Positions 11,923-26,771 of a stretch of 27,644 bases of DNA are shown piece by piece (positions within the stretch are counted from its first letter, which is position 1; each line of letters begins with the position of its first letter). Location of the stretch: IMG/VR virus record IMGVR_UViG_3300027985_000265, positions 1 through 27,644 of that record, one strand, 5' to 3'. The position numbers and the translations under genes are program-made. Under the pieces are notes generated by a model that saw only the letters and a program-made list of their open reading frames with translations, had not been told where the DNA came from and ran no database searches. This DNA is from a virus.

Positions 11923-13440
11923 ATGGAAGCAACTTTACCGAATCAACCTGCTGGAAGGATTTTGATTCATGAAAAATTTGATGGTAATGGGTTTACTAAT
12001 AACAACTCCCTTGCTCAAATGCGTTTGACAAAGGCAGATCAAATTAATCCCGTTATTACTCACCTTATGGGTAGAGAAGATCGTAAATTTCCTCTAACCT
12101 TTCTAACAGAAGGTCAAAAAGGTGGAATGAAACGTATCGAAGTAGAAGATGTAGAGTATAACTGGCCAGTTATATCTCGTATGAAACAATCAGACGTTGT
12201 AGTAGGACATTCTTATTCTGCATCTGATAAACCTGGTATTGCAGGTTCTATTTTTAAAGTTAGATTTAAAACTAACTGGTTGAAACAACAACATACAATT
12301 CACTCTCCTAATGGAATCCAAGCTAGGATTCAAGGAAGACCTGAACCTGTAGATGGTGTATGGGAATATAAGTTAGTAATAATTTACCGTGACCCATCTG
12401 AGTATTGTCCTCTTAGTGAACTACAATATGGAGCTAAATGGTCAATGACTGGTGGAGCTAACGTTGCTGAATCTTACTCTAGTGGTAATGAAAGTAATAA
12501 ACAAGCACCTGGTCGTTTGAAAAACCAAATTGGTATTCTCCGTAAATCTTATGAAATTGCTGGTAATGTATCTAATAGGACTGTAGAATTTCAGTTTAAT
12601 ATTAAAGGTAAGGTTACAAGTAAATGGATGCCATGGGAAGAGTATCAACATGAAATGCAATTTAAAGAAGTAATTGAAGAAAACCTTTGGTGGTCTAAGT
12701 ATAATAGGGATGCACAAGGTAGGATTACTACTATTGATCCTGATACTCAATTACCTATTCCTATGAGTGCAGGTGTTGATGATCAAATCCCTCATAAAGA
12801 TACCTATGGAATTTTAACAGTTCAAAAATTACATAATACTGTAGGAGATGTATTATATGGTGGTACTGATACAGGTAATATGGATGTAATTCTGTTTACA
12901 GGTATTGGCGGGGCTAGAGAATTTGATGCGTCTATTAAACGTGATACCACAGGTACAGGTGGTTGGATGCTATTACAAGGAGATGCAGCTACTAAATTTG
13001 TACGTGGAAATGGCACTCATAACTTAGAGTATGGAGGTTACTTTAATAAATATGTACATATAGATGGGCATACTATTACAGTACGTTTGTTAAATCTACT
13101 TGATTTTGGTAGTAGAGCAGATAATAGCCCTAAACATCCTATTTCTAATCTTCCATTAAGTTCATATGAAATGTACTTCGTTGATATGAGTATGTATGAT
13201 GGAGATAGAAATGTTAAGATGGTATCTCAAAAAGGACGTTCAATGATTCGTGGTATTGAACAAGGTATGACTCTAGTTAAGGGTACGAATTACGGAGACT
13301 ATAAAGGTAATGCTAATGATGTACGACTAGCAACAGATCAAGATAAAACTTCTATTCACTTCCTTAAAACTTGTGGAATTTTGATTAGAAGAAATACACA
13401 TTGTTTTAAACTATCTTGTGACCTTGAACCCGCGATATAG
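11923..13440 (+). CDS. Major capsid protein (HK97-fold candidate)
   Basis: A 505-residue protein after portal and scaffold, the standard place of the major capsid protein, and of the size seen in crAss-like phages. Arginine codons are about half CGN (13 of the 26 I counted), unlike neighbours that use AGA/AGG. Composition is less AT-rich, as expected for the most translated gene. It is preceded by a 27-base leader made almost wholly of A and T and followed by a strong terminator (13477-13507). The stop is TAG, with further in-frame TAG and TGA codons within 21 bases. No HK97 motif can be proved by eye, so the family is inferred from position, size and expression signs. Confidence 0.88.
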   Translation: MEATLPNQPAGRILIHEKFDGNGFTNNNSLAQMRLTKADQINPVITHLMGREDRKFPLTFLTEGQKGGMKRIEVEDVEYNWPVISRMKQSDVVVGHSYSASDKPGIAGSIFKVRFKTNWLKQQHTIHSPNGIQARIQGRPEPVDGVWEYKLVIIYRDPSEYCPLSELQYGAKWSMTGGANVAESYSSGNESNKQAPGRLKNQIGILRKSYEIAGNVSNRTVEFQFNIKGKVTSKWMPWEEYQHEMQFKEVIEENLWWSKYNRDAQGRITTIDPDTQLPIPMSAGVDDQIPHKDTYGILTVQKLHNTVGDVLYGGTDTGNMDVILFTGIGGAREFDASIKRDTTGTGGWMLLQGDAATKFVRGNGTHNLEYGGYFNKYVHIDGHTITVRLLNLLDFGSRADNSPKHPISNLPLSSYEMYFVDMSMYDGDRNVKMVSQKGRSMIRGIEQGMTLVKGTNYGDYKGNANDVRLATDQDKTSIHFLKTCGILIRRNTHCFKLSCDLEPAI

Positions 13441-16863: not shown

Positions 16864-17898
16864 ATGTTACTAAAAGATACAGCTACATTTAGTATAAGTG
16901 TTTCAGAAGATATTTATACTTTTACAAATAAAACTGGTGGAGACTTAATATATAGTTTATATAGACAAGATGCAGTTAAAGTTCTTATATCAGAAAATAC
17001 TGTAGCTGCATTAGGTTCAGAATCAATAACTTTTGATGGGGATGGATTATATATAGTAGATGTTGCTGGTAATGAAACAGAAATAAGATATTATTTGCAA
17101 CTACAGGAAAACCTGTTAAGTGTTATAGAGGATTTTCTAAATGATTGTTGTTCATTTGCTAATCCTACATATGATTGTAGTTGTACTGATCCTATAGAAG
17201 TCAGATGTTCTCAATTTGCATCTGTACAAATAATGCTTCTTACTTATAAAAATTTAGTATCAGAAATACTTAATAATTCAGGTTCTGCCCTTTATTTATT
17301 ACAAGCATTTGAATTATATGAAAATGAAATAAGAACAGCCTATTTAAATCATTTTTCACAAGAGTGTATATCTGGTAAGAGTCTATATGGATCAAAAACA
17401 CTAAAATATATAACTCCTATATATTATACTCTATTTTTAGAAACTGAAAAAAGTGAAAGAGATGGAGAAGATAATGATTATATAGAATCTAAATTTAATT
17501 ATTCTACTATTTCATCTAGTATGAATAAATTAGGTATTAGTTATAGTCAATTAAAATCTATTGTTACCACAACTATTTTAATTATTATTATTTCTTTAAA
17601 TTTATCTATTCCTATAGATAGAAGTATTGATGTAACATATACATTTTCATCTTCTGATTTTCCATATACTAATGGTAATCCATTAGGTAGGACTCATATA
17701 AGAATTAATACAATACCAAATGAAGGTGAATTAGCTTATAATGGTGACGTACTTGGAGTTGATTTATCATTACCTTATATTATTGAAGAATCTAATATAG
17801 GTAATTTAGTATATACATCTAATGCAAGTAATACTTCCGCTTATGATGTAATATTTGATTATGATTCTAGTAATAATAATAAATACAATTGGGGTTAA
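16864..17898 (+). CDS. Tail-associated protein with a cysteine cluster and an Ig/cadherin-like end (344 aa)
   Basis: A 344-residue protein in three parts. Residues 1-80 are beta-rich. Residues 80-230 are helical and contain five cysteines (Cys95, 96, 105, 107, 115; DCCSFANPTYDCSCTDP), suggesting a metal site or disulfides. Residues 233-250 are hydrophobic (TTTILIIIISLNLSIP), perhaps a buried strand or helix or a membrane-piercing segment. The last ~90 residues resemble an Ig/cadherin-like domain (THIRINTIPNEGELAYNG). It overlaps the FISUMP gene by one base (TAATG). Its place between a structural gene and adhesin-like genes suggests a tail or baseplate component. No family is assigned. Confidence 0.65.
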   Translation: MLLKDTATFSISVSEDIYTFTNKTGGDLIYSLYRQDAVKVLISENTVAALGSESITFDGDGLYIVDVAGNETEIRYYLQLQENLLSVIEDFLNDCCSFANPTYDCSCTDPIEVRCSQFASVQIMLLTYKNLVSEILNNSGSALYLLQAFELYENEIRTAYLNHFSQECISGKSLYGSKTLKYITPIYYTLFLETEKSERDGEDNDYIESKFNYSTISSSMNKLGISYSQLKSIVTTTILIIIISLNLSIPIDRSIDVTYTFSSSDFPYTNGNPLGRTHIRINTIPNEGELAYNGDVLGVDLSLPYIIEESNIGNLVYTSNASNTSAYDVIFDYDSSNNNKYNWG

Positions 17899-18563
17899 TG
17901 GCCACTATTACTCTTAACATATCTAGTATATTAACATCTATTAAACTTGGTTATCTTTATAATTGGTACACTACTACCGATATTAGAAATATAGGTAATA
18001 CAGATTGGGATACTCCTACATTATTAGAAATAGAGGATTTAAGAACTTTTATAGGGGGTCTTAATTCTGGAGGGGATATGAAATCTACAGATGAAATTTA
18101 TTGGTATTCTCCTAATGAAGGTGCAACTAATTTAAGAGGATTTTCAGCTAAAGGTAGTGGTAGTAGAAGTTTTGGTGGTAATTTTGGGGGTATGTTAATT
18201 TCTGCTAATTTTTGGATAAAAGATGAAGACCTAAACCCTGTATATGCAATGAATTATAATTTTCTTTATTATTTAGATACTTTTACTATTACAGGAACAA
18301 GACCTAAAAATGCGGGTTATTCTATAAGATTAGTAAAAAATACTACTACACTAAATGAGGGTCAATCAGGTTTATATGTAGGAAATGATGGTAAAGTATA
18401 TTCAACTATATGTATAAATGGTAAAGAATGGTTAGCAGAAAATTTAGCTGAAACTCAGTATAGAAATGAGGACTTTGTAGATAATATAACTGATGATACT
18501 TTATGGGAAACCTCTATAGTAGGTGCTAGGTGTGCTTATGATAATGATGAAAAAAATGTATAA
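17898..18563 (+). CDS. FISUMP-domain virion protein, circularly permuted
   Basis: The ATG at 17898 overlaps the previous stop (TAATG), giving 221 residues starting MATITLNISS. The frame is open a little further upstream. The body is a FISUMP domain (Fibrobacter succinogenes major paralogous domain, common in Bacteroidetes surface and phage proteins). Its halves are swapped. The usual later half comes first: GYLYNWYTTTD at 18-28, TPTLLEIEDLRTFIGG, GFSAKGSGSRSFGG, GYSIRLVKN at 140-148. The usual opening comes last: GKVYSTICINGKEWLAENL at 165-183 and ARCAYDNDEKN at 210-220. Ligand binding at the host surface is the likely role. The N-terminal decapeptide is nearly shared with the LRR protein at 25113. 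Confidence 0.78.
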   Translation: MATITLNISSILTSIKLGYLYNWYTTTDIRNIGNTDWDTPTLLEIEDLRTFIGGLNSGGDMKSTDEIYWYSPNEGATNLRGFSAKGSGSRSFGGNFGGMLISANFWIKDEDLNPVYAMNYNFLYYLDTFTITGTRPKNAGYSIRLVKNTTTLNEGQSGLYVGNDGKVYSTICINGKEWLAENLAETQYRNEDFVDNITDDTLWETSIVGARCAYDNDEKNV

Positions 18564-18579
18564 ATAATAAATATAAACA

Positions 18580-18951
18580 ATGGAAAAAGCTGATGTTAAA
18601 ATATTATTTAAATATCTTAAAGATATATATTTAAGATTAGTTAATAATACTTCTAATAGTATTGTTACTGTAAATGGTAATCTTAATACTCAAGAAGTTT
18701 ACTCTTTAGAGGATACCGATTCATTACTATTAGTCTCTAATACAATAGGATATTTAAGTATTGGAGTTGAATCTGGTACTACAGTTGATATTGCTATTAG
18801 TGGTAGTAATACCATTACTTTAAATGGAGATGCAGTTAATGGTTTAGAAATTGATTTTTCTAAATATGTTAATGGAGTAAATCCATCAAATATAACTTTA
18901 ACTGTATCTGGGGTTAATAAATGTTTAATTGAATTAGGTAAAAAAGTATAA
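18580..18951 (+). CDS. Small beta-rich tail protein (123 aa), unknown function
   Basis: A 123-residue protein with an N-terminal helix (VKILFKYLKDIYLRLVN) followed by a body rich in Val, Ile, Thr, Ser and Asn with a regular alternating pattern (SIGVESGTTVDIAISG, NITLTVSG). This suggests a small beta-sandwich on a helical stalk, as seen in fibre- or baseplate-attached proteins. It lies between the FISUMP and the long fibre genes, 16 bases after the former and two before the latter, and may help attach one of them. No cysteine cluster or membrane segment. Family not recognised. Confidence 0.7.
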   Translation: MEKADVKILFKYLKDIYLRLVNNTSNSIVTVNGNLNTQEVYSLEDTDSLLLVSNTIGYLSIGVESGTTVDIAISGSNTITLNGDAVNGLEIDFSKYVNGVNPSNITLTVSGVNKCLIELGKKV

Positions 18952-18953
18952 TT

Positions 18954-21911
18954 ATGGGATTTAGAACTAAAGGATATGGAGAGAATATTACTCTACCATT
19001 AAATCCAACAAATACTATTCATACACCTGGTAGAATTAGATTTAATCCAACTGATCATACTATGGATTTGGATACTGATCTAGATGGTGTATCTATTCAA
19101 TTAGGTCAAGAGACTCTAACTATAGTATATAATGATACAGGTGTTCAAATAAATAATGGTAGTATCATCTACCCTACTGGGGAAATTTTTCTATCTAGAG
19201 CTAAAGTAGATTTAGCGTCTGCTACTACTCATGAAACCTGCCCACAAGAACTATTTGTAGCTACTATGGATATTCCTGATGGAGAGTTTGGATATGCTGT
19301 AGAATTATCTGGTAGAGTAAGAGGATTAGATACTAGTTTATTATCTCTAGGTGATGTATATTTATCAACTATCCCAGGTGCTTTTACTCAAACAAAACCT
19401 CTATCTCCTAATTATTCTAGAAAAGTAGGATCTGTAACTGTTATAGATGCAGTAAATGGAGAAATACAAGCTAGAATAACTGGTAGTCCAATAGATACTA
19501 CTATTAATTTTTGGAATGGTATTTTTAGAGAGACTATATCATTTACAATTACTAGTAATGGTAGTACTATTATAGGTTCATTAGAGAGAAAAAATGGGGG
19601 TGATTTGACTGCTATATTTAGTGATGGTCTATATCTATTAGATACTACACCTCCTTTAGAAATTAATTTAGTAGCTGGTACAGATACTAATCCACAAATT
19701 CAATATGTATATTTTTTACAATCTTCTAAAACTTTAGAAGTTGCTACAGGAGATTGGCCAGTAACAGAGCATATTAAAATATCTACTGTAGTTTTAAAAA
19801 GTGCTCCAACTACTCAATCAGAAGGGGGAGCTTTTAGAAATCAAAACTGGAATGATCATATTGAATCAATAGATAATAATATAGGACATTTACAACATAT
19901 TGGTGAAAGAATAAGACAACATCATGCAATACATCATGCAGGAACTGAAGGGTCTTGTACTATTGTAGAGGGTTCTCCTGATAATGTCTATATATCTGTT
20001 ACTAGTGGAATAGTATTTCAATTACATAGGCAAACTTTTCCTGCATTTAATATGCAAACTGGAGATGACATCCATATTGTAAATGATTTTACTACCCCTT
20101 ATAAAACAGTAACAAATTTAAATAATGAAGTATTGGATGCTAATGGGAATACTTTATCTAATAAAGCATTCTCATTTGTAGTATGGGGTATTTGTAATAG
20201 TGGAGGAGAATTAAGTCATTTAATGTTAAATAAACCTTCAAATGGATATAGTATTGGTTCTCCTAATGATGCTATTAATGATGCTTTGAATTATTCTGTT
20301 TATGATATTCCTACTATATTTAAAGGAACAGGTTTTCTAATTGCAAGATTTACATTTACATTAGGGGGAGGTGGACTACAATGGACTTTAATAGATACCC
20401 AAGATTTAAGAGGTTATGTACCTAATAATATAGCAGGAGGAGGTACAGGTGGATCGGGTATTACTACTTATTTAGGATTAACTGATACTCCTGTTACTTA
20501 TACTGCTTTAGCATTTCAAAGAGCTAATGCTAGTGGTACTGCATTAGAAAATGTTCTAGCAAACGGAGTAAACTTATCAGAATTTAATAATAATTTAACT
20601 CAAGATAATATTCCTAATGGAACTACTTATGTTCAAACAGAAAATAATTATACAGATGTAGAGAAAAGTAAATTAGCAGGACTAGAAAGTTCTAAATTTC
20701 TAGGGCAGTATGCTAGTTTAGGTGCTCTTGAAACAGCTTATCCTAGTCCTCCTATTGGTAGTTATGGTTATGTAGATGGGGGTATAGGTAGTGATGTTAC
20801 TACTTATATATGGGATAATGATGATAGTAAATATGTAGCTCAATTAGGTGAATCTAATGCTGAAACCTCTGCTAGTATTAAAACTAAATATGAATCTAAT
20901 CCAGATACAAATGCTTTCACTGATATTGAAAAAACTAAAGTAGGTAATTTAAGTGGAACTAATACTGGTGACGTTAGTTTAGTAGGTGAACCAGACTATC
21001 TTACTATAGTAGGGCAAGTATTAACTAGAAATTTAATTAATTTAGTTAATCATATTACTGGAACTTTAGGAATAGGAAATGGAGGTACAGGACAAACTAC
21101 TGCTTTAGCAGGATTTAATGCCCTAAGTCCATTAACAACACAGGGAGATATTATTTATCACAATGGTAGTGATAATATAAGATTAGCAAAAGGTACAGCC
21201 GGACAGGTGTTAACTATGAATAGTGGGGCTACTGCACCAGAATGGGCAGATGCAGGTGGCGGTGCTTCATTATTAGATTTAGTTGGTTATCAAGAAGGAG
21301 GATGGAGCGCATCAGGTAGTGGAGCAGTAGTATCTGGATGGGGTTTATGTGGATTATTATCAGTAATCCATAGTTCTTCTGGTGCTGGGGTTGATAGTGA
21401 TGGTGCATATCTAGAGCAAATCCCTACTGGGTCTGCTAATTACGATATGTACATATCATCTGGAAATGGTTCTGCGTATATATGCGAAAGTCTTTCTTAT
21501 CCTGTTTTTATGGTTAAATTTGGGCGATCATTAAATACAAGTTTTGGACTAGATGTAGGATTGAATGACGCAACAAGTTATTCTACTGTATTCAATTTCA
21601 TAGGAATAACTGATAATGGGTCAGGAGGATTACAATTTGAAACCGCAGATGATGGAGGTGAAACAACAACAGCAACAGGGGTCACATGGACAACTCAGAC
21701 ATTAATCTTAGTATGTGAGGTAGTTAGTAATACAGAAGTTAATTTTTGGCTATATGATTCTGATTATACAGAATTAGCTACAGCTACTCATACCACTAAT
21801 ATCCCTGACATTAATGAGCCTGCTTTTTTAAAAAGCTTATACAGGGATAAAGCTGGAAACAGTTCAAACACATTTAAACAGTATGCGGCTAAAATAATCC
21901 TTAAAAAATAA
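18954..21911 (+). CDS. Long tail fibre / receptor-binding protein (985 aa)
   Basis: The longest gene of the window. Residues 1-300 form a beta-rich attachment part. Residues about 305-325 hold a His-rich stretch (HLQHIGERIRQHHAIHHAG) whose IGERIR core recurs in tail proteins of Bacteroidetes phages. A middle part follows with TYLGLTDTP and fibre units such as TDVEKSKLAGL and SYGYVDGGIGSD. Residues about 700-765 carry a classic fibre repeat (GNGGTGQTTALAGFNAL, QGDIIYHNG, GTAGQVLTMN). The last ~220 residues form a Gly/Ser/Thr-rich tip, likely the receptor-binding domain. The tip DNA is richer in G+C than the rest (70 of 180 bases at 21541-21720 against 14 of 60 at 19501-19560), which suggests a later exchange. 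Confidence 0.85.
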   Translation: MGFRTKGYGENITLPLNPTNTIHTPGRIRFNPTDHTMDLDTDLDGVSIQLGQETLTIVYNDTGVQINNGSIIYPTGEIFLSRAKVDLASATTHETCPQELFVATMDIPDGEFGYAVELSGRVRGLDTSLLSLGDVYLSTIPGAFTQTKPLSPNYSRKVGSVTVIDAVNGEIQARITGSPIDTTINFWNGIFRETISFTITSNGSTIIGSLERKNGGDLTAIFSDGLYLLDTTPPLEINLVAGTDTNPQIQYVYFLQSSKTLEVATGDWPVTEHIKISTVVLKSAPTTQSEGGAFRNQNWNDHIESIDNNIGHLQHIGERIRQHHAIHHAGTEGSCTIVEGSPDNVYISVTSGIVFQLHRQTFPAFNMQTGDDIHIVNDFTTPYKTVTNLNNEVLDANGNTLSNKAFSFVVWGICNSGGELSHLMLNKPSNGYSIGSPNDAINDALNYSVYDIPTIFKGTGFLIARFTFTLGGGGLQWTLIDTQDLRGYVPNNIAGGGTGGSGITTYLGLTDTPVTYTALAFQRANASGTALENVLANGVNLSEFNNNLTQDNIPNGTTYVQTENNYTDVEKSKLAGLESSKFLGQYASLGALETAYPSPPIGSYGYVDGGIGSDVTTYIWDNDDSKYVAQLGESNAETSASIKTKYESNPDTNAFTDIEKTKVGNLSGTNTGDVSLVGEPDYLTIVGQVLTRNLINLVNHITGTLGIGNGGTGQTTALAGFNALSPLTTQGDIIYHNGSDNIRLAKGTAGQVLTMNSGATAPEWADAGGGASLLDLVGYQEGGWSASGSGAVVSGWGLCGLLSVIHSSSGAGVDSDGAYLEQIPTGSANYDMYISSGNGSAYICESLSYPVFMVKFGRSLNTSFGLDVGLNDATSYSTVFNFIGITDNGSGGLQFETADDGGETTTATGVTWTTQTLILVCEVVSNTEVNFWLYDSDYTELATATHTTNIPDINEPAFLKSLYRDKAGNSSNTFKQYAAKIILKK

Positions 21912-21914
21912 CAA

Positions 21915-22412
21915 ATGAAAAAATATAAAATAGAAAATAATCAAATAGTTGAAGAAGTAATTCTTAAAACTATACAAGATGTAGATAAATATTCTTATGA
22001 AGATGGGTGGAGAGATGATATTAAACCTACTGAAATAAATTGGAGTACTCAACAATTAGGGGATATATATTTTGATACTAATTTAGATAAGGTTACTTGG
22101 ACTGTTATTGATAAAGAATTACCTTCTTTAGAAAAATTAAAATCTCAAAAATATAAAGAATTAAATTCTACTAAAGAAGAGATTACTAATATTATTAAAG
22201 ATTTAAATAATAAATATAATCCTTTAGGATTAACTCCTAATAGGATACCTACTGATTTAATTTCTTTTTTAACAGCTAATCATCCAGAAGATTTAAATAC
22301 CAGAGCTATTACAGAGATAGAATCTTTATCTACAAAAGAAAAAGCCATAAATTATAAAATTAAAGGTACTGAGATTAAAGATTATATTGATTATCTTAAA
22401 AGTTTCTTATAA
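21915..22412 (+). CDS. Probable tail-fibre assembly/attachment protein (165 aa)
   Basis: Directly after the fibre gene (3-base gap). The N-terminal ~75 residues are a small mixed domain with DGWRDDIKP and LGDIYFDTNLDKVTW. The C-terminal part is a long charged helix (EKLKSQKYKELNSTKEEIT). This two-part layout, next to a fibre gene, is typical of fibre-assembly chaperones or fibre-tip partners (tail fiber assembly/DUF4376-like proteins). No motif proves the assignment. The gene overlaps the following membrane-protein gene by one base (TAATG). Confidence 0.6.
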   Translation: MKKYKIENNQIVEEVILKTIQDVDKYSYEDGWRDDIKPTEINWSTQQLGDIYFDTNLDKVTWTVIDKELPSLEKLKSQKYKELNSTKEEITNIIKDLNNKYNPLGLTPNRIPTDLISFLTANHPEDLNTRAITEIESLSTKEKAINYKIKGTEIKDYIDYLKSFL

Positions 22413-22633
22413 TGTTTAGTAATTTTAATTTTAATAAAATAAAGAATATATTATTTTTAATATGGAAAGATAAAGTAGATATGGCTATGTTAATTATCAT
22501 TGTCATACTATTTATTTCTTCCTTTATTACTAATAATGATTTTGCTTTAGGTTCTATTGGATTTATAAGTATATATACTTTTGGTAGTATATATAGACAA
22601 GCATATTGGAAATACATGTATAAAACTAAATAA
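22412..22633 (+). CDS. Small membrane protein (73 aa), possible lysis factor
   Basis: A 73-residue protein with a hydrophobic core at about residues 24-40 (MAMLIIIVILFISSF) and a second, weaker one at 46-60 (LGSIGFISIYTFGS), flanked by Lys and Arg. It starts within the stop of the preceding gene. Two membrane helices and a position directly before a peptidase gene are consistent with a holin-type or accessory lysis membrane protein. A second holin-like gene lies at 24290, so which one sets lysis timing is open. Confidence 0.6.
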   Translation: MFSNFNFNKIKNILFLIWKDKVDMAMLIIIVILFISSFITNNDFALGSIGFISIYTFGSIYRQAYWKYMYKTK

Positions 22634-22634
22634 T

Positions 22635-23285
22635 ATGTATATAGAAGCAGGTGATGTAGTAATGGTACATTCTAAAAAACCTATAGGTAGGTTAATACAA
22701 TTTGGAATGAATTTAATAAGATGGACATCTATTAAATCAATTTTAAGAATCTTACAGGGGAAAGAACCTATTTACAAATTTATCTATAATCATGGTGGTA
22801 TGGGTAGGTTTAGTAATACTATTCAAGAAGCTATAGCTAAAGGTGTTAAAACTAGAAATGAATCTTTAGCCTATCCTCATATGAAATTAGCTTCTAGTTT
22901 AGAAGATGCTAGATTAAATTCTAAAAAGTATATTATTGCCGTTTATAGATATAATTGGACTCAAAGACAATTAATAGCCCATGAAAATTTATCTAATAGT
23001 ATAGAAAATATTAAATATCAATTTGATAATTTTTTATTATATCTTATTTATATTTTATCTTTTAGAATTATATGGCTAGGAAAACAAAATATAAAAGCTA
23101 CAAATAATATTTACTGTACTGAGGCTAATTCATATAAAATGTTTTATATGACTAATCCTTTATTATCTACAAATAAAATAGATAAAGATATACATTATAG
23201 ATTAAGAAAATATTGGATTGGACATCCTCTTAAACAACAACTAATTTGTGAAGATTATTTTATACCTACTTATTATTACTTATAA
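22635..23285 (+). CDS. Permuted papain-like (YiiX/NlpC-P60-type) peptidase or amidase
   Basis: The frame is open from 22581, but the ATG at 22635 (TAATATG, one base after the previous stop) is the natural start and gives 216 residues. The N-terminus IEAGDVVMVHSKKPIGRL matches the opening of YiiX-like, circularly permuted NlpC/P60 proteins, where 'GD-hhh' precedes the catalytic His. His53 in YNHGGM and Glu65 (TIQEAIAKGV) fit the His and acidic positions. Cys161 in NIYCTEAN fits the late 'FCSE'-type nucleophile of this permuted group. Such enzymes hydrolyse peptide or acyl bonds. In this cassette cell-wall peptide cleavage is likely, but another amidase role is possible. All three key residues are present. 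Confidence 0.7.
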   Translation: MYIEAGDVVMVHSKKPIGRLIQFGMNLIRWTSIKSILRILQGKEPIYKFIYNHGGMGRFSNTIQEAIAKGVKTRNESLAYPHMKLASSLEDARLNSKKYIIAVYRYNWTQRQLIAHENLSNSIENIKYQFDNFLLYLIYILSFRIIWLGKQNIKATNNIYCTEANSYKMFYMTNPLLSTNKIDKDIHYRLRKYWIGHPLKQQLICEDYFIPTYYYL

Positions 23286-23326
23286 TATCTCTTAATTCAG
23301 TTAATAAGTCCTTAACTTAGTATAGT

Positions 23327-23851
23327 ATGAATGATAAAATTAAAGAATTTAACCATGTTCTGCAAAGTGGATATGAAAAAATAAGCGAATTTGATAAAAA
23401 AGGACATGAATTATTAATTAATATAGAAACTAAAGCAAATGAAGTTTTTAATAGTATAAATACTAAAAATAATAATGCTATCTGTAGTATAAATAAAATG
23501 ATAAAAGAAACTACAGATAAGTTAGAAGAAGCTCACTTAAATGATAGAAAACGTATTGAAGAAAAATCTGATAAAGCTTGGAATTTTCTAAAATGGTTTG
23601 CAATACTATCTATAGGTTCTAGTTTAGCATTATCTTTTGCTAATAAATTAGTATTAGAAACTAAAGCTAATGATTTAGAACTTAAAAACTATTATATGAC
23701 AAAAGATAATGCTAGAAAAGCATTTATGTTACATGAAGAAAGAATTAAAAAACTAGAATCAGACTCTATGTTAGTAAAAGATAATTCTAACTATCAACTA
23801 ATAATAGAATCTTTATTTGATGAAAAAAGTAGAGGTAATAAAACTAGATAA
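23327..23851 (+). CDS. Membrane-anchored coiled-coil protein (174 aa)
   Basis: Residues 1-84 and 108-165 are charged, heptad-like helices, around one hydrophobic segment at about 87-106 (FLKWFAILSIGSSLALSFAN). The protein thus looks like a single-pass membrane protein with coiled coils on both sides. It sits between two peptidase genes, after a 41-base gap that is one of the longest in this block. Roles in organising the lysis machinery across the inner membrane are possible; no family was recognised. Confidence 0.7.
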   Translation: MNDKIKEFNHVLQSGYEKISEFDKKGHELLINIETKANEVFNSINTKNNNAICSINKMIKETTDKLEEAHLNDRKRIEEKSDKAWNFLKWFAILSIGSSLALSFANKLVLETKANDLELKNYYMTKDNARKAFMLHEERIKKLESDSMLVKDNSNYQLIIESLFDEKSRGNKTR

Positions 23852-23853
23852 TT

Positions 23854-24288
23854 ATGTGTAAGTGTATCTATTTTAAAATATATGAATTAGTATCTGAACA
23901 AGTTTATAATAAATATGGGGAATCTGCTTGGAGGTTTTTTGATCCTAGATTATTAGAAACTTTAGATTGGGTTAGACTAAATTTAAATAAACCAATTATT
24001 ATAAATAACTGGTATTGGGGAGGTCATTTAGATGAGAGGGGTTTAAGATGTAATTTAGATTCTATAGTAAAAAATGCTACATTAAGAAATAAATTATATT
24101 GTTCTGCTCATACTAGAGGAATGGCTGTAGATTTTACGGTAGAAGGAATGACAGCACAGGAAGTAAGAAATTGGTTAATTAATAATAAAGATTTAATACC
24201 TTCCCCCATAAGATTAGAGAAAGATGTATCTTGGGTTCATTTAGATGTAGTAGATACAGGAGAAAAAATATATTTATTTACTGCTTAA
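23854..24288 (+). CDS. Zinc M15-type peptidase, probable endolysin
   Basis: A 144-residue protein with the Peptidase M15 signature. His86 and Asp93 in SAHTRGMAVDF and His129 in WVHLDV are the three zinc ligands expected for D-Ala-D-Ala or L-Ala-D-Glu peptidases. An Arg-bearing loop (DERGLRC) precedes them. The length fits a bare catalytic domain without a wall-binding module, as in endolysins against Gram-negative hosts. No signal peptide is visible, so release should depend on a holin, and a holin-like gene follows one base later. It likely cuts peptidoglycan cross-bridges or stem peptides at lysis. Confidence 0.85.
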   Translation: MCKCIYFKIYELVSEQVYNKYGESAWRFFDPRLLETLDWVRLNLNKPIIINNWYWGGHLDERGLRCNLDSIVKNATLRNKLYCSAHTRGMAVDFTVEGMTAQEVRNWLINNKDLIPSPIRLEKDVSWVHLDVVDTGEKIYLFTA

Positions 24289-24289
24289 T

Positions 24290-24496
24290 ATGTTACAAAA
24301 TAAAACACGAATAAGATTGACTTGGTATGCTGTAGTTTCTTCTACAGCTATTGCCATTTTAGGAGTATTTAAAGGTATGGAAACATTAGCTATAACTGCT
24401 TTAGGAGTTATAAGTACAGTATCTATGGCTTATATAGGTAGTAAAGCTTATACTAATGCTAAATTTATGGAAACAAATGTCAAAAATAAAGAATAA
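24290..24496 (+). CDS. Holin-like membrane protein (68 aa)
   Basis: A 68-residue protein with two hydrophobic helices, about residues 11-27 (TWYAVVSSTAIAILGVF) and 31-52 (ETLAITALGVISTVSMAYIG), and charged ends. The size, topology and position directly after the M15 endolysin gene are those of a holin, which makes holes in the inner membrane and releases the endolysin. It overlaps the next gene by 20 bases when the ATG at 24477 is used. Confidence 0.7.
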   Translation: MLQNKTRIRLTWYAVVSSTAIAILGVFKGMETLAITALGVISTVSMAYIGSKAYTNAKFMETNVKNKE

Positions 24497-25112
24497 TATA
24501 TCAGTATTAATATGGGTAGTATTTATTTTTATACTATTACCTATATTATTTAACACAAATTATAAGCATAATTTAATAAAATTTTTAGGTGGTTATACAA
24601 CTAAAGATACTATTAAAATTTCTATAGATACTCTAGATATTAAAATAGATACTACTAGAATCATAAATAATTGGATAGAAGTTAATGCAGATTTATTTGA
24701 ACCTATTATAATAGATAATACTAAAGATAGTATTGTTTATAAAGATAGTATTATTTATTTAAATAATGGTATAATATACGATTATAAAAATTCTATAACT
24801 GATAGTTTATTATTTGGTTATATACATACTAGTATAGATTATGGAAATAAAAAAATATTAGCTCAAAATTTGGTTTATAAACCAAAATTTCCTATTATTA
24901 TAACAAAAACTATACCTATTCTAAAAACTATAGAAACAAATACTTATAATAATTATAAAATAGGTGGAGGATTTGATATAAATAGTTTAGGAGATATAGG
25001 TATAATAGGGGCTTATCAAAATAATAAAGGACTTCAATATACTATAACTTATGAATTAAATAATAGTATTCCTAATAATAGTTTAAGATTTGGTATAATA
25101 AAATTTTTTTAA
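24477..25112 (+). CDS. Spanin-like protein with N-terminal membrane anchor (211 aa)
   Basis: The ATG at 24477 (MSKIKNNI) gives 211 residues; an upstream ATG at 24456 in the same frame adds seven and cannot be excluded. Residues about 9-23 are hydrophobic (SVLIWVVFIFILLPI), a membrane anchor or uncleaved signal. The periplasmic part is rich in Asp, Ile, Thr and Asn with a regular beta pattern. It ends in a Gly-rich beta stretch (YKIGGGFDINSLGDIGIIGA, then RFGIIKFF), like an outer-membrane-facing beta end. Next to an endolysin and holin this suggests a spanin-type function, joining inner and outer membranes at lysis. No lipobox was seen. Confidence 0.6.
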   Translation: MSKIKNNISVLIWVVFIFILLPILFNTNYKHNLIKFLGGYTTKDTIKISIDTLDIKIDTTRIINNWIEVNADLFEPIIIDNTKDSIVYKDSIIYLNNGIIYDYKNSITDSLLFGYIHTSIDYGNKKILAQNLVYKPKFPIIITKTIPILKTIETNTYNNYKIGGGFDINSLGDIGIIGAYQNNKGLQYTITYELNNSIPNNSLRFGIIKFF

Positions 25113-26771
25113 ATGGCAACTATAACACTACAAATAAGTTCTTTAAACTCTTTTGAAACTGTTTGGAATATGACTTCTGGTAATTTTACATTACCTTTAA
25201 AAAGTGGATTATTTACACATGACTTCTATGTAGATTATGGTGATGGAACACCTGCTGTCCATGTAAGTAGTTATAATGATCCTAATGCTACTCATAGTTA
25301 TGTCTCTGATGGTACTTATATTATAAAAATATCTGGTATTTGTGAAACATGGAATATAAATAATAATTCTAATATAAAAGATAAATTAGTATCTATACAA
25401 AATTGGGGTAGTGTTGGTTTTAAATCTCTAAATTATGGATTTTATGGATGTTCTAATTTAGTATCTTTACCTTCTGGTGGTATAACTGGGTCAGAACAAG
25501 TAACAGATTTTAGTGGTACATTTGGTGCATCTGGATTAACTTCTATACCTTCTGATTTATTCAGTCTAAATACTAATGCCACTTTATTTAATTCTGTATT
25601 TCAAGATTGTGATGGATTTACATCTATACCTAGTACATTATTTAGTAATAATACTAATGCTACTAGCTTTTATCAATCTTTTTATGGATGTTCTGGTATT
25701 ACTACTGTACCTAGTACATTATTTAGTAATAATATTGATGCTACTAATTTTAGAGGTACATTTAGAAATTGTAATAATTTTATTACATTACCTAGTGGAT
25801 TATTCAATAATAATATTAATGTAGAATCCTTTACAGAAACATTTAGAAATAGTGCTATTACATCTATACCTTCTGGATTATTTGATAATTGTACTAATCT
25901 ACTATATTGCGAATCTACTTTTGATAATTGCTATTCTTTATCTAGTATTCCTATTGGATTATTTTCTAATAATACCTTAGTTCAAACTTTTAAAAGTGTA
26001 TTTTATAATTGTGATAGTTTGACATCTATACCAGATAATTTATTTAATGGTTGTAGTGATAATACTACATTTGAAAGTGCTTTTCAAGGAAGTAGTAATA
26101 TAGTTACAATGGGTAATAATATATTTAATAATTGTAATAATGTCACCACATTTAGAAGAGCTTTTTCAGGTTGTGTTAAACTAACTAATATTTCTACAGG
26201 TTTATTTAATAGTTGTAGTAATGTTACTAGTTTTTATGAAACATTTTTTAATACTGATATATTAAGTATTCCAATTGGATTATTTGATAATTGTCCAAAT
26301 GTAACAACGTTCGAAAGTACGTTTAATCAGATAAATACTACGTCTATTCCAATTGGATTATTTGATAATTGTCCAAATGTAACAACATTTAAGAGTACAT
26401 TTTTAGGATCACCTATTACATCTATACCTTCTGGATTATTTGATAATTGTACTATAGTTACTACATTTGATTCTACATTTAGAGGAACTCTTATCACATC
26501 TGTACCTAATAATTTATTTGATAATAATGTTTTAGTTACTAACTTTACTAGCACTTTTTGGATAACAGGACAATTACATACAGTTCCTTCTGATTTATTT
26601 CAATATAATATAAATGTTACAAGTTTTATACAAACATTTGCTAGTTCTGCGATAACTTTTGCACCTGAATTATGGGTATCACATCCTTTAGCTTCTCATA
26701 CTAACTGTTTTTATTTATGTACTGGTGCAAGTAACTATGCTTCTATACCTAATGATTGGAAAGGATTATAA
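25113..26771 (+). CDS. PKD plus BspA/DUF285-type leucine-rich-repeat protein (552 aa)
   Basis: Starts MATITLQISS, almost the same decapeptide as the FISUMP protein, immediately after the preceding TAA in the same frame. Residues about 33-80 form a PKD-like beta domain (YVDYGDGTP, ATHSYVSDGTYIIKISG). The rest, to about residue 545, consists of about 16 leucine-rich units of 22-28 residues with the pattern S-I-P-x-x-L-F-x-x-x-x-x-x-x-x-F-x-x-x-F-x-x-C, as in BspA/DUF285-type surface proteins of Bacteroidetes and mycoplasmas. Such repeats bind host or matrix proteins. In a phage it should be an adhesin-like virion protein or a surface factor. No signal peptide was found, which favours the virion. 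Confidence 0.8.
   Translation: MATITLQISSLNSFETVWNMTSGNFTLPLKSGLFTHDFYVDYGDGTPAVHVSSYNDPNATHSYVSDGTYIIKISGICETWNINNNSNIKDKLVSIQNWGSVGFKSLNYGFYGCSNLVSLPSGGITGSEQVTDFSGTFGASGLTSIPSDLFSLNTNATLFNSVFQDCDGFTSIPSTLFSNNTNATSFYQSFYGCSGITTVPSTLFSNNIDATNFRGTFRNCNNFITLPSGLFNNNINVESFTETFRNSAITSIPSGLFDNCTNLLYCESTFDNCYSLSSIPIGLFSNNTLVQTFKSVFYNCDSLTSIPDNLFNGCSDNTTFESAFQGSSNIVTMGNNIFNNCNNVTTFRRAFSGCVKLTNISTGLFNSCSNVTSFYETFFNTDILSIPIGLFDNCPNVTTFESTFNQINTTSIPIGLFDNCPNVTTFKSTFLGSPITSIPSGLFDNCTIVTTFDSTFRGTLITSVPNNLFDNNVLVTNFTSTFWITGQLHTVPSDLFQYNINVTSFIQTFASSAITFAPELWVSHPLASHTNCFYLCTGASNYASIPNDWKGL
26268..26388 (+). repeat. Recent internal duplication in the LRR gene
   Basis: A ~38-base stretch starting ATTCCAATTGGATTATTTGA is present at 26268 and again at 26346, 78 bases (26 codons) apart. 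Another ~36-base stretch, encoding TSIPSGLFDNCT, recurs at about 25860 and 26418. Identity at silent positions in an otherwise diverged repeat array indicates recent copying or conversion between units. Confidence 0.75.

Follow-up and report, generated by a model that had tools for sequence, protein, structure and literature searches.

What might two otherwise unrelated proteins of one phage, encoded 7 kb apart, gain from beginning with nearly the same ten residues? The question is raised by a virus record of 27,644 bases (the whole stretch of DNA analysed, here called the window), which is part of a Crassvirales phage. This membership follows from the crAss-type capsid and portal proteins encoded in the window (matches to phrog_11589 and phrog_6547) and from conserved gene order, the packaging and head genes being arranged as in Rudgehvirus jaberico, to whose capsid protein that of the window is 39% identical. 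The head genes are separated from the tail genes by a variable block containing a FISUMP protein, a fibre, lysis genes and a PKD-LRR protein, and it is the FISUMP and PKD-LRR proteins that share their start. The features discussed below are the following.

11923–13440, + strand: major capsid protein (phrog_11589, E = 7.5e-88; 39% identity to Rudgehvirus jaberico)
16864–17898, + strand: acceptor gene, 344 aa, with a predicted C-terminal Ig/cadherin-like domain lacking the last strand (ORF; HMM domain match reaching the ORF end; gene-order position as for the acceptor genes of L084 and L138)
17587–17895, + strand: predicted strand-less Ig-like acceptor domain, residues 242–344 of the 344-aa protein (alignment with 40 other cut domains; AF2 model)
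17896–17900, + strand: TAATG stop/start overlap of the acceptor and FISUMP genes (sequence; identical 2-nt offset in 10 of 41 acceptor–donor pairs)
17898–17927, + strand: putative donor strand 1, MATITLNISS (rank 1 of 28 window N-termini; homologous to in-cis G strands)
17898–18563, + strand: FISUMP protein, 221 aa, tagged module 1 (PF09603, E = 9.6e-15, residues 17–147)
25113–25142, + strand: putative donor strand 2, MATITLQISS (rank 2 of 28 window N-termini)
25113–26771, + strand: PKD/BspA-like LRR protein, 552 aa, tagged module 2 (phrog_9915, E = 2.7e-92; similar to BspA-family and phage tail proteins)

The starts MATITLNISS at 17898 and MATITLQISS at 25113 were both confirmed. The two tags are identical at nine of ten residues, yet only 20 of their 30 bases agree, and six of the nine identical residues are written with different codons. 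Comparison of the FISUMP and PKD-LRR proteins by BLASTP gave a significant alignment limited to the first 11 residues, the remainder being dissimilar, and the back-translated decapeptide pattern was found twice in the window against 0.00 expected (100 dinucleotide shuffles). On this sequence evidence the tag pair is real and preserved at the peptide level, in agreement with a sequence-only reading of the window, which had proposed a decapeptide carried by two unrelated proteins and kept while the DNA diverged. The span of that reading, 17898–25142, omitted the key partner, the gene at 16864–17898, with whose stop codon the MATITLNISS start shares a TAATG overlap. The MATITLQISS start sits immediately past the TAA of its own upstream gene.

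The remainders of the two proteins are distinct modules. The FISUMP protein matches PF09603 with 55.8 bits, above the curated cut-off of 33.9, and the match begins at residue 17. The long BspA-type repeat region of a P2-like tail protein in Klebsiella phage ST16-OXA48phi5.4 (MK416015.1, 23679–26705) resembles the PKD-LRR protein of the window. No homologues of the FISUMP and PKD-LRR proteins were found in 23 relatives, the LRR search having been run without a positive control, and orthologue comparison of the tagged modules is impossible for this reason. A fibre of 985 aa with an SO2946-like C-terminal domain is encoded between the two tagged genes (18954–21911); its start, MGFRTKGYG, is off the donor pattern.

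To judge by the sequences searched, the literal decapeptide is local to the window phage. Allowing up to two mismatches, no match was obtained in 25 related phage records, and none of 4420 N-terminal pairs within related contigs reached five of nine identities. Apart from a single unrelated phage family, MATITLDIRSELPM, the IMG/VR and GTDB contigs contained the decapeptide start elsewhere only in frames that were short or unrelated. The proteins of this family (L001, L002, L003, L006 and L008) are of about 222 aa, and their MATITLDIRS-type start is apparently convergent. The outcome that the sequence-only reading had named as its own refutation, no relative sharing the start, is thus literally what these searches gave, even though the cut domain and the strand pattern, described below, are both widespread. 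Identity-shared N-termini are lacking within the genomes of relatives because the strand pattern is conserved and the letters are not.

Bacterial pili and matrix fibres are known to use donor-strand complementation. In pili, the strand absent from the Ig-like fold of one subunit is provided by another, through an N-terminal extension in which hydrophobic residues alternate (PMC4654587). We consider it likely that the decapeptide of the window is a detached G strand, which acts as donor for the strand-less Ig domain of the 16864–17898 protein and so attaches interchangeable modules in trans. Both parts of such a system can be read in the window: the acceptor domain is, by alignment and model, an Ig-like fold without one strand, and MATITLNISS and MATITLQISS are, by their pattern of alternating hydrophobics (Ile4, Leu6 and Ile8), predicted N-terminal strands of the required kind.

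The joint between cut domain and strand recurs in other phages. In the window, the acceptor gene, which ends in FDYDSSNNNKYNWG, is followed by the gene starting MATITLNISS. L084, a relative, has at the position of window 16864–17898 a gene with a cadherin/Ig-like end, FDFSARDTGSLTWIN; next come an in-frame ORF of 12 codons, MAKVKIVIKPRR, and a gene starting MATVFLNIGEG. Cellulophaga phage phi14:2 has two such joints, g083 ending in FSARDEGSKIWVS and overlapping a gene (g082) that starts MAIFNIISEE, and g080 ending in EVADAGSKKFTA and overlapping a gene (g079) that starts MGTFSITVPL. Here, as in the window, the domain is cut at the equal point and the overlapping gene starts with the strand; the donor modules are different ones, and the joint is undescribed in the record annotation. 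The annotation lists both acceptor-bearing proteins, g083 and g080, among the virion proteins detected by MS/MS, and g080 has a strand at its N-terminus as well as a cut domain at its C-terminus. BLASTP detected no homology between the window acceptor and phi14:2 g083, the Ig domains being linked by profile alone.

Uncut copies of the domain inside other proteins run on with a strand (e.g., GISIVISD and NIIVTVVK). In L089, L090 and L103, the Ig-like domains are uncut within one gene (753 aa) and the next genes have strand-less starts (MKNALKFIRN, MKLNINNRIF); the downstream genes of L089 and L090, without a donor-type start, constitute a small natural control. The layout of the window is found again in L138 (4182–8938; the contig of L099), with an acceptor, an overlapping donor (MATVTINTG, 224 aa, PKD) and, further on, a second donor (MALVTINNY, 468 aa, weak FNIP match). 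This distal donor has no detectable relationship with the LRR protein of the window.

The origin of the tag can be read by comparing these two arrangements. Complete internal copies of the domain, with the strand in cis, include SNMATITINTEAYVNQPPSEVGD, NNMATFKINSTQYVNQAPSEVGD and NNMGLFTINNGAYVNQPPSQVGD, and N-termini of separate proteins that match the strand plus linker include MATFTVTVNSKDNQPPNQIGN, MAIFTLTTNSYTNLPPNQIGD and MALFTVTTNSYVNLPPSQVGN. The in-cis copies and the donor N-termini read alike, and the N-terminal peptide therefore corresponds to the G strand of the preceding domain, together with its linker in chain-type proteins. At the level of sequence, these matches show that the tag is homologous to the G strand that Ig/cadherin-like domains carry in cis. 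Furthermore, each of the 28 gene starts of the window was appended to the acceptor and scored by a profile built on the complete domains of other phages. The start at 17898 ranked first and that at 25113 second in completing the window acceptor, with small gains (3.7 and 3.4 bits, respectively). Across all acceptors, the median rank of the acceptor's own next ORF was 41 of 298 in the same scoring.

Generality was assessed with a domain-alignment scan, which yielded 39 loci that were pooled with earlier loci. ORFs ending with the Ig domain numbered 46, or 43 once near-duplicates were removed, from Crassvirales contigs including phi14:2; the crAss capsid family was present in 32 of 33 acceptor records tested against 0 of 14 control genomes. 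The cut falls recurrently at one point of the domain, the ORF stopping exactly nine residues from the D of DxGS in 41 of the 43 domain ends. Of the two exceptions, one is the window copy, which is divergent (at most 27% identical to the other cut domains, with no exact DxGS) but whose alignment end is equivalent. An ORF of at least 10 codons starts within 60 nt of the domain end in 41 of the 43 cases, and it is typically opened by the strand: 29 of these 41 next ORFs start M[AG]xΦxΦ (Φ, at positions 4 and 6, being hydrophobic), whereas the other N-termini of the same loci, which served as background, do so in 18 of 297 cases (Fisher p = 2e-20, a value that overstates independence because the cases, in 19–30 acceptor clusters, share descent). 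With the strand pattern allowed in either register, the counts are 38 of 41 and 71 of 297. Most of the 18 background matches resemble further donors, namely the PKD-LRR protein and several proteins with an N-terminal strand plus inter-domain linker. The ORFs following the acceptors L130, L139 and L145 are without a clear strand. The 42 donors fall into 22 module families, including FISUMP, PKD, collagen, fibre-repeat, DUF5977 and weakly FNIP-like modules.

Micro-ORFs of 10–16 codons were also observed directly past the cut Ig domain: MAKVKIVIKPRR (L084:17047–17082), MATFKVITRK and MATFKVITKK (L128 and L132, 11 nt past the acceptor stop) and MGTMSLRVQPLFIDPV (L134, 2 nt past).

Compatibility of strand and domain was examined with AF2. 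The acceptor of L084 was extended past its TAA to include the 12-residue ORF, and the alignment supplied consisted of 40 cut domains, with no rows covering the donor; the readthrough is a device joining both pieces in one chain, and natural readthrough of the TAA is not claimed. The model (pLDDT 95, pTM 0.86) contains one extra strand, residues 102–114, made up of the acceptor stub and the donor residues. The strand is thus predicted to fit the groove, in cis and for the relative L084 only, not for the window pair. Modelled alone, the window domain has the strands of the L084 model minus the last one, with coil after residue 96 and moderate confidence (pLDDT 80). BFVD models of phi14:2 match over 117 columns for g080 versus 105 for the cut g083. 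Fold matches in the PDB (CSPG4 repeats, the Milano and 7-7-1 collar domain, PAD2, intimin and pilins) are weak, with Z below 9 throughout, and are read as a common Ig-like arrangement only.

According to the donor-strand reading, the protein encoded at 16864–17898 ends in an Ig/cadherin-like domain without its G strand and should therefore expose a hydrophobic groove, into which the N-terminal strand of the FISUMP or of the PKD-LRR protein would snap in trans, completing the fold. As both modules carry the strand, different surface modules could occupy one acceptor. With the frequent stop/start overlap, acceptor and first donor would be made side by side, and any protein gaining the ten-residue start could join the acceptor. 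The micro-ORFs may supply free cap strands, and chains are possible because proteins such as phi14:2 g080 bear both an N-terminal strand and a C-terminal cut domain. We infer that the pairing takes place in trans between separate proteins; both window donors presumably use the acceptor at 16864–17898, and the complex would be located on the virion, binding the host or its surroundings. Further acceptors may exist elsewhere in the genome because the window is a fragment. The core of the earlier idea, a docking tag for interchangeable modules on one site, is hence well supported, with a detached Ig G strand as the tag and the strand-less C-terminal Ig domain next door as the likely site; of the neck or capsid dock that had been suggested, nothing was found beyond the acceptor gene. 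For the Crassvirales more widely, it is likely that virions build modular surface chains by donor-strand complementation. In these chains, C-terminal strand-less Ig domains would take G strands from the N-termini of many unrelated modules, and also from Ig-chain proteins acting as donor and acceptor at once; micro-ORFs are possible caps, and the ten-residue tag would be the means of recruiting modules.

Four other explanations were weighed against donor-strand complementation. Tandem-Ig genes may have been split in the F–G loop, leaving the strand on the downstream gene as a relic of fission without any docking role. The N-terminal strand and linker are indeed homologous to the in-cis copy, and most donors adjoin an acceptor, but some lie away from any (25113, 7 kb off; L121:5545; L138:7532), the donors comprise 22 module families, micro-ORFs of 10–16 codons hold little besides the strand and the cut point is constant across highly divergent domains; we regard such a relic as improbable. 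Slightly less probable again is fusion in cis by recoding, in which a frameshift or stop readthrough would give one long polypeptide with a completed domain. Spread over all three frames (20/12/9), the acceptor–donor offsets do not favour it, an in-frame stop blocks the frameshift in 17 of 41 pairs, inspection of the junctions by eye revealed no shared slippery site, and the tag at 25113, 7 kb distant, would be left unexplained. In its favour are the −1 overlap of donor and acceptor in the window, where the donor frame is open 16 nt ahead of the stop, the geometrical possibility of a shift in 24 of 41 pairs and the established occurrence of frameshifted Ig-like domains in phages.

The tag could instead dock to another virion protein, such as a capsid hexon pocket or the tail hub, as do the fibres of crAss001 through short N-terminal segments of 26–58 residues (PMC10172136). 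We give this very little credence, since the tag is homologous to the very strand missing from the neighbouring domain and the two tags complete the acceptor profile best among the window N-termini. Least credible of all is chance or convergence, by which MAxIxLxI would be a common β-strand start and the match meaningless: one unrelated phage family does start MATITLDIRS, but the shuffles, the absence of any comparable pair among the 4420 in relatives and the strong enrichment of such starts behind cut domains all oppose it, and the enrichment and homology data already contradict it.

In tailed phages, virion proteins are known to bear Ig-like surface domains that are optional, their coding sequence running across a stop codon by frameshift. 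There, a whole domain is added in cis by recoding, whereas here the domain stops short of its last strand, which opens separate proteins instead. Closer in principle are the chaperone-usher pili, which likewise have a strand-less Ig-like fold completed by the N-terminal extension of a partner (PMC4654587). The phage case differs in that a phage-encoded cadherin-like domain of another sequence family is used with many unrelated donor modules, the acceptor retains a short strand stub and micro-ORF donors occur; membership in the chaperone-usher pilus family is not claimed. In Agrobacterium phage Milano, the linking proteins LP1 and LP2 are two virion proteins that, like the tagged proteins, have a similar N-terminal strand; an Ig-type domain is predicted in one of them, and the other has 38 residues (PMC10491603). 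LP1 and LP2 differ in linking capsid proteins, with disulfides, and no strand-accepting cut Ig domain is described for them (PMC10491603). The head fibres gp21 and gp29 and the tail fibre gp22 of crAss001 are also Crassvirales surface proteins that dock via short N-terminal segments, but their docks are the capsid hexon pocket and the tail hub, and no missing Ig strand is described for their 26–58-residue docking parts (PMC10172136).

Among the open-access papers searched for donor strand or strand complementation together with phage, no phage virion case was found, and a 2026 paper that treats the Ig-like adhesins of gut phages does not contain the word “strand”. If correct, the donor-strand reading would extend donor-strand complementation to phage virions and provide a concrete, testable rule for the mounting and exchange of crAss-like phage surface modules, a ten-residue strand being sufficient to join an acceptor. 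It would also explain two puzzling features behind Ig domains, the overlapping genes and the micro-ORFs, and the tag, being readable in sequence, could serve to find unannotated adhesins in uncultured phages.

Two acceptor types occur in series in L122, L126, L127, L134, L137 and L155, where an end of the form DTGSMIWVx is followed by two-Ig proteins of MLYTITN type, whose own cut end precedes small MG-type proteins. Strand specificity may encode the order of a chain.
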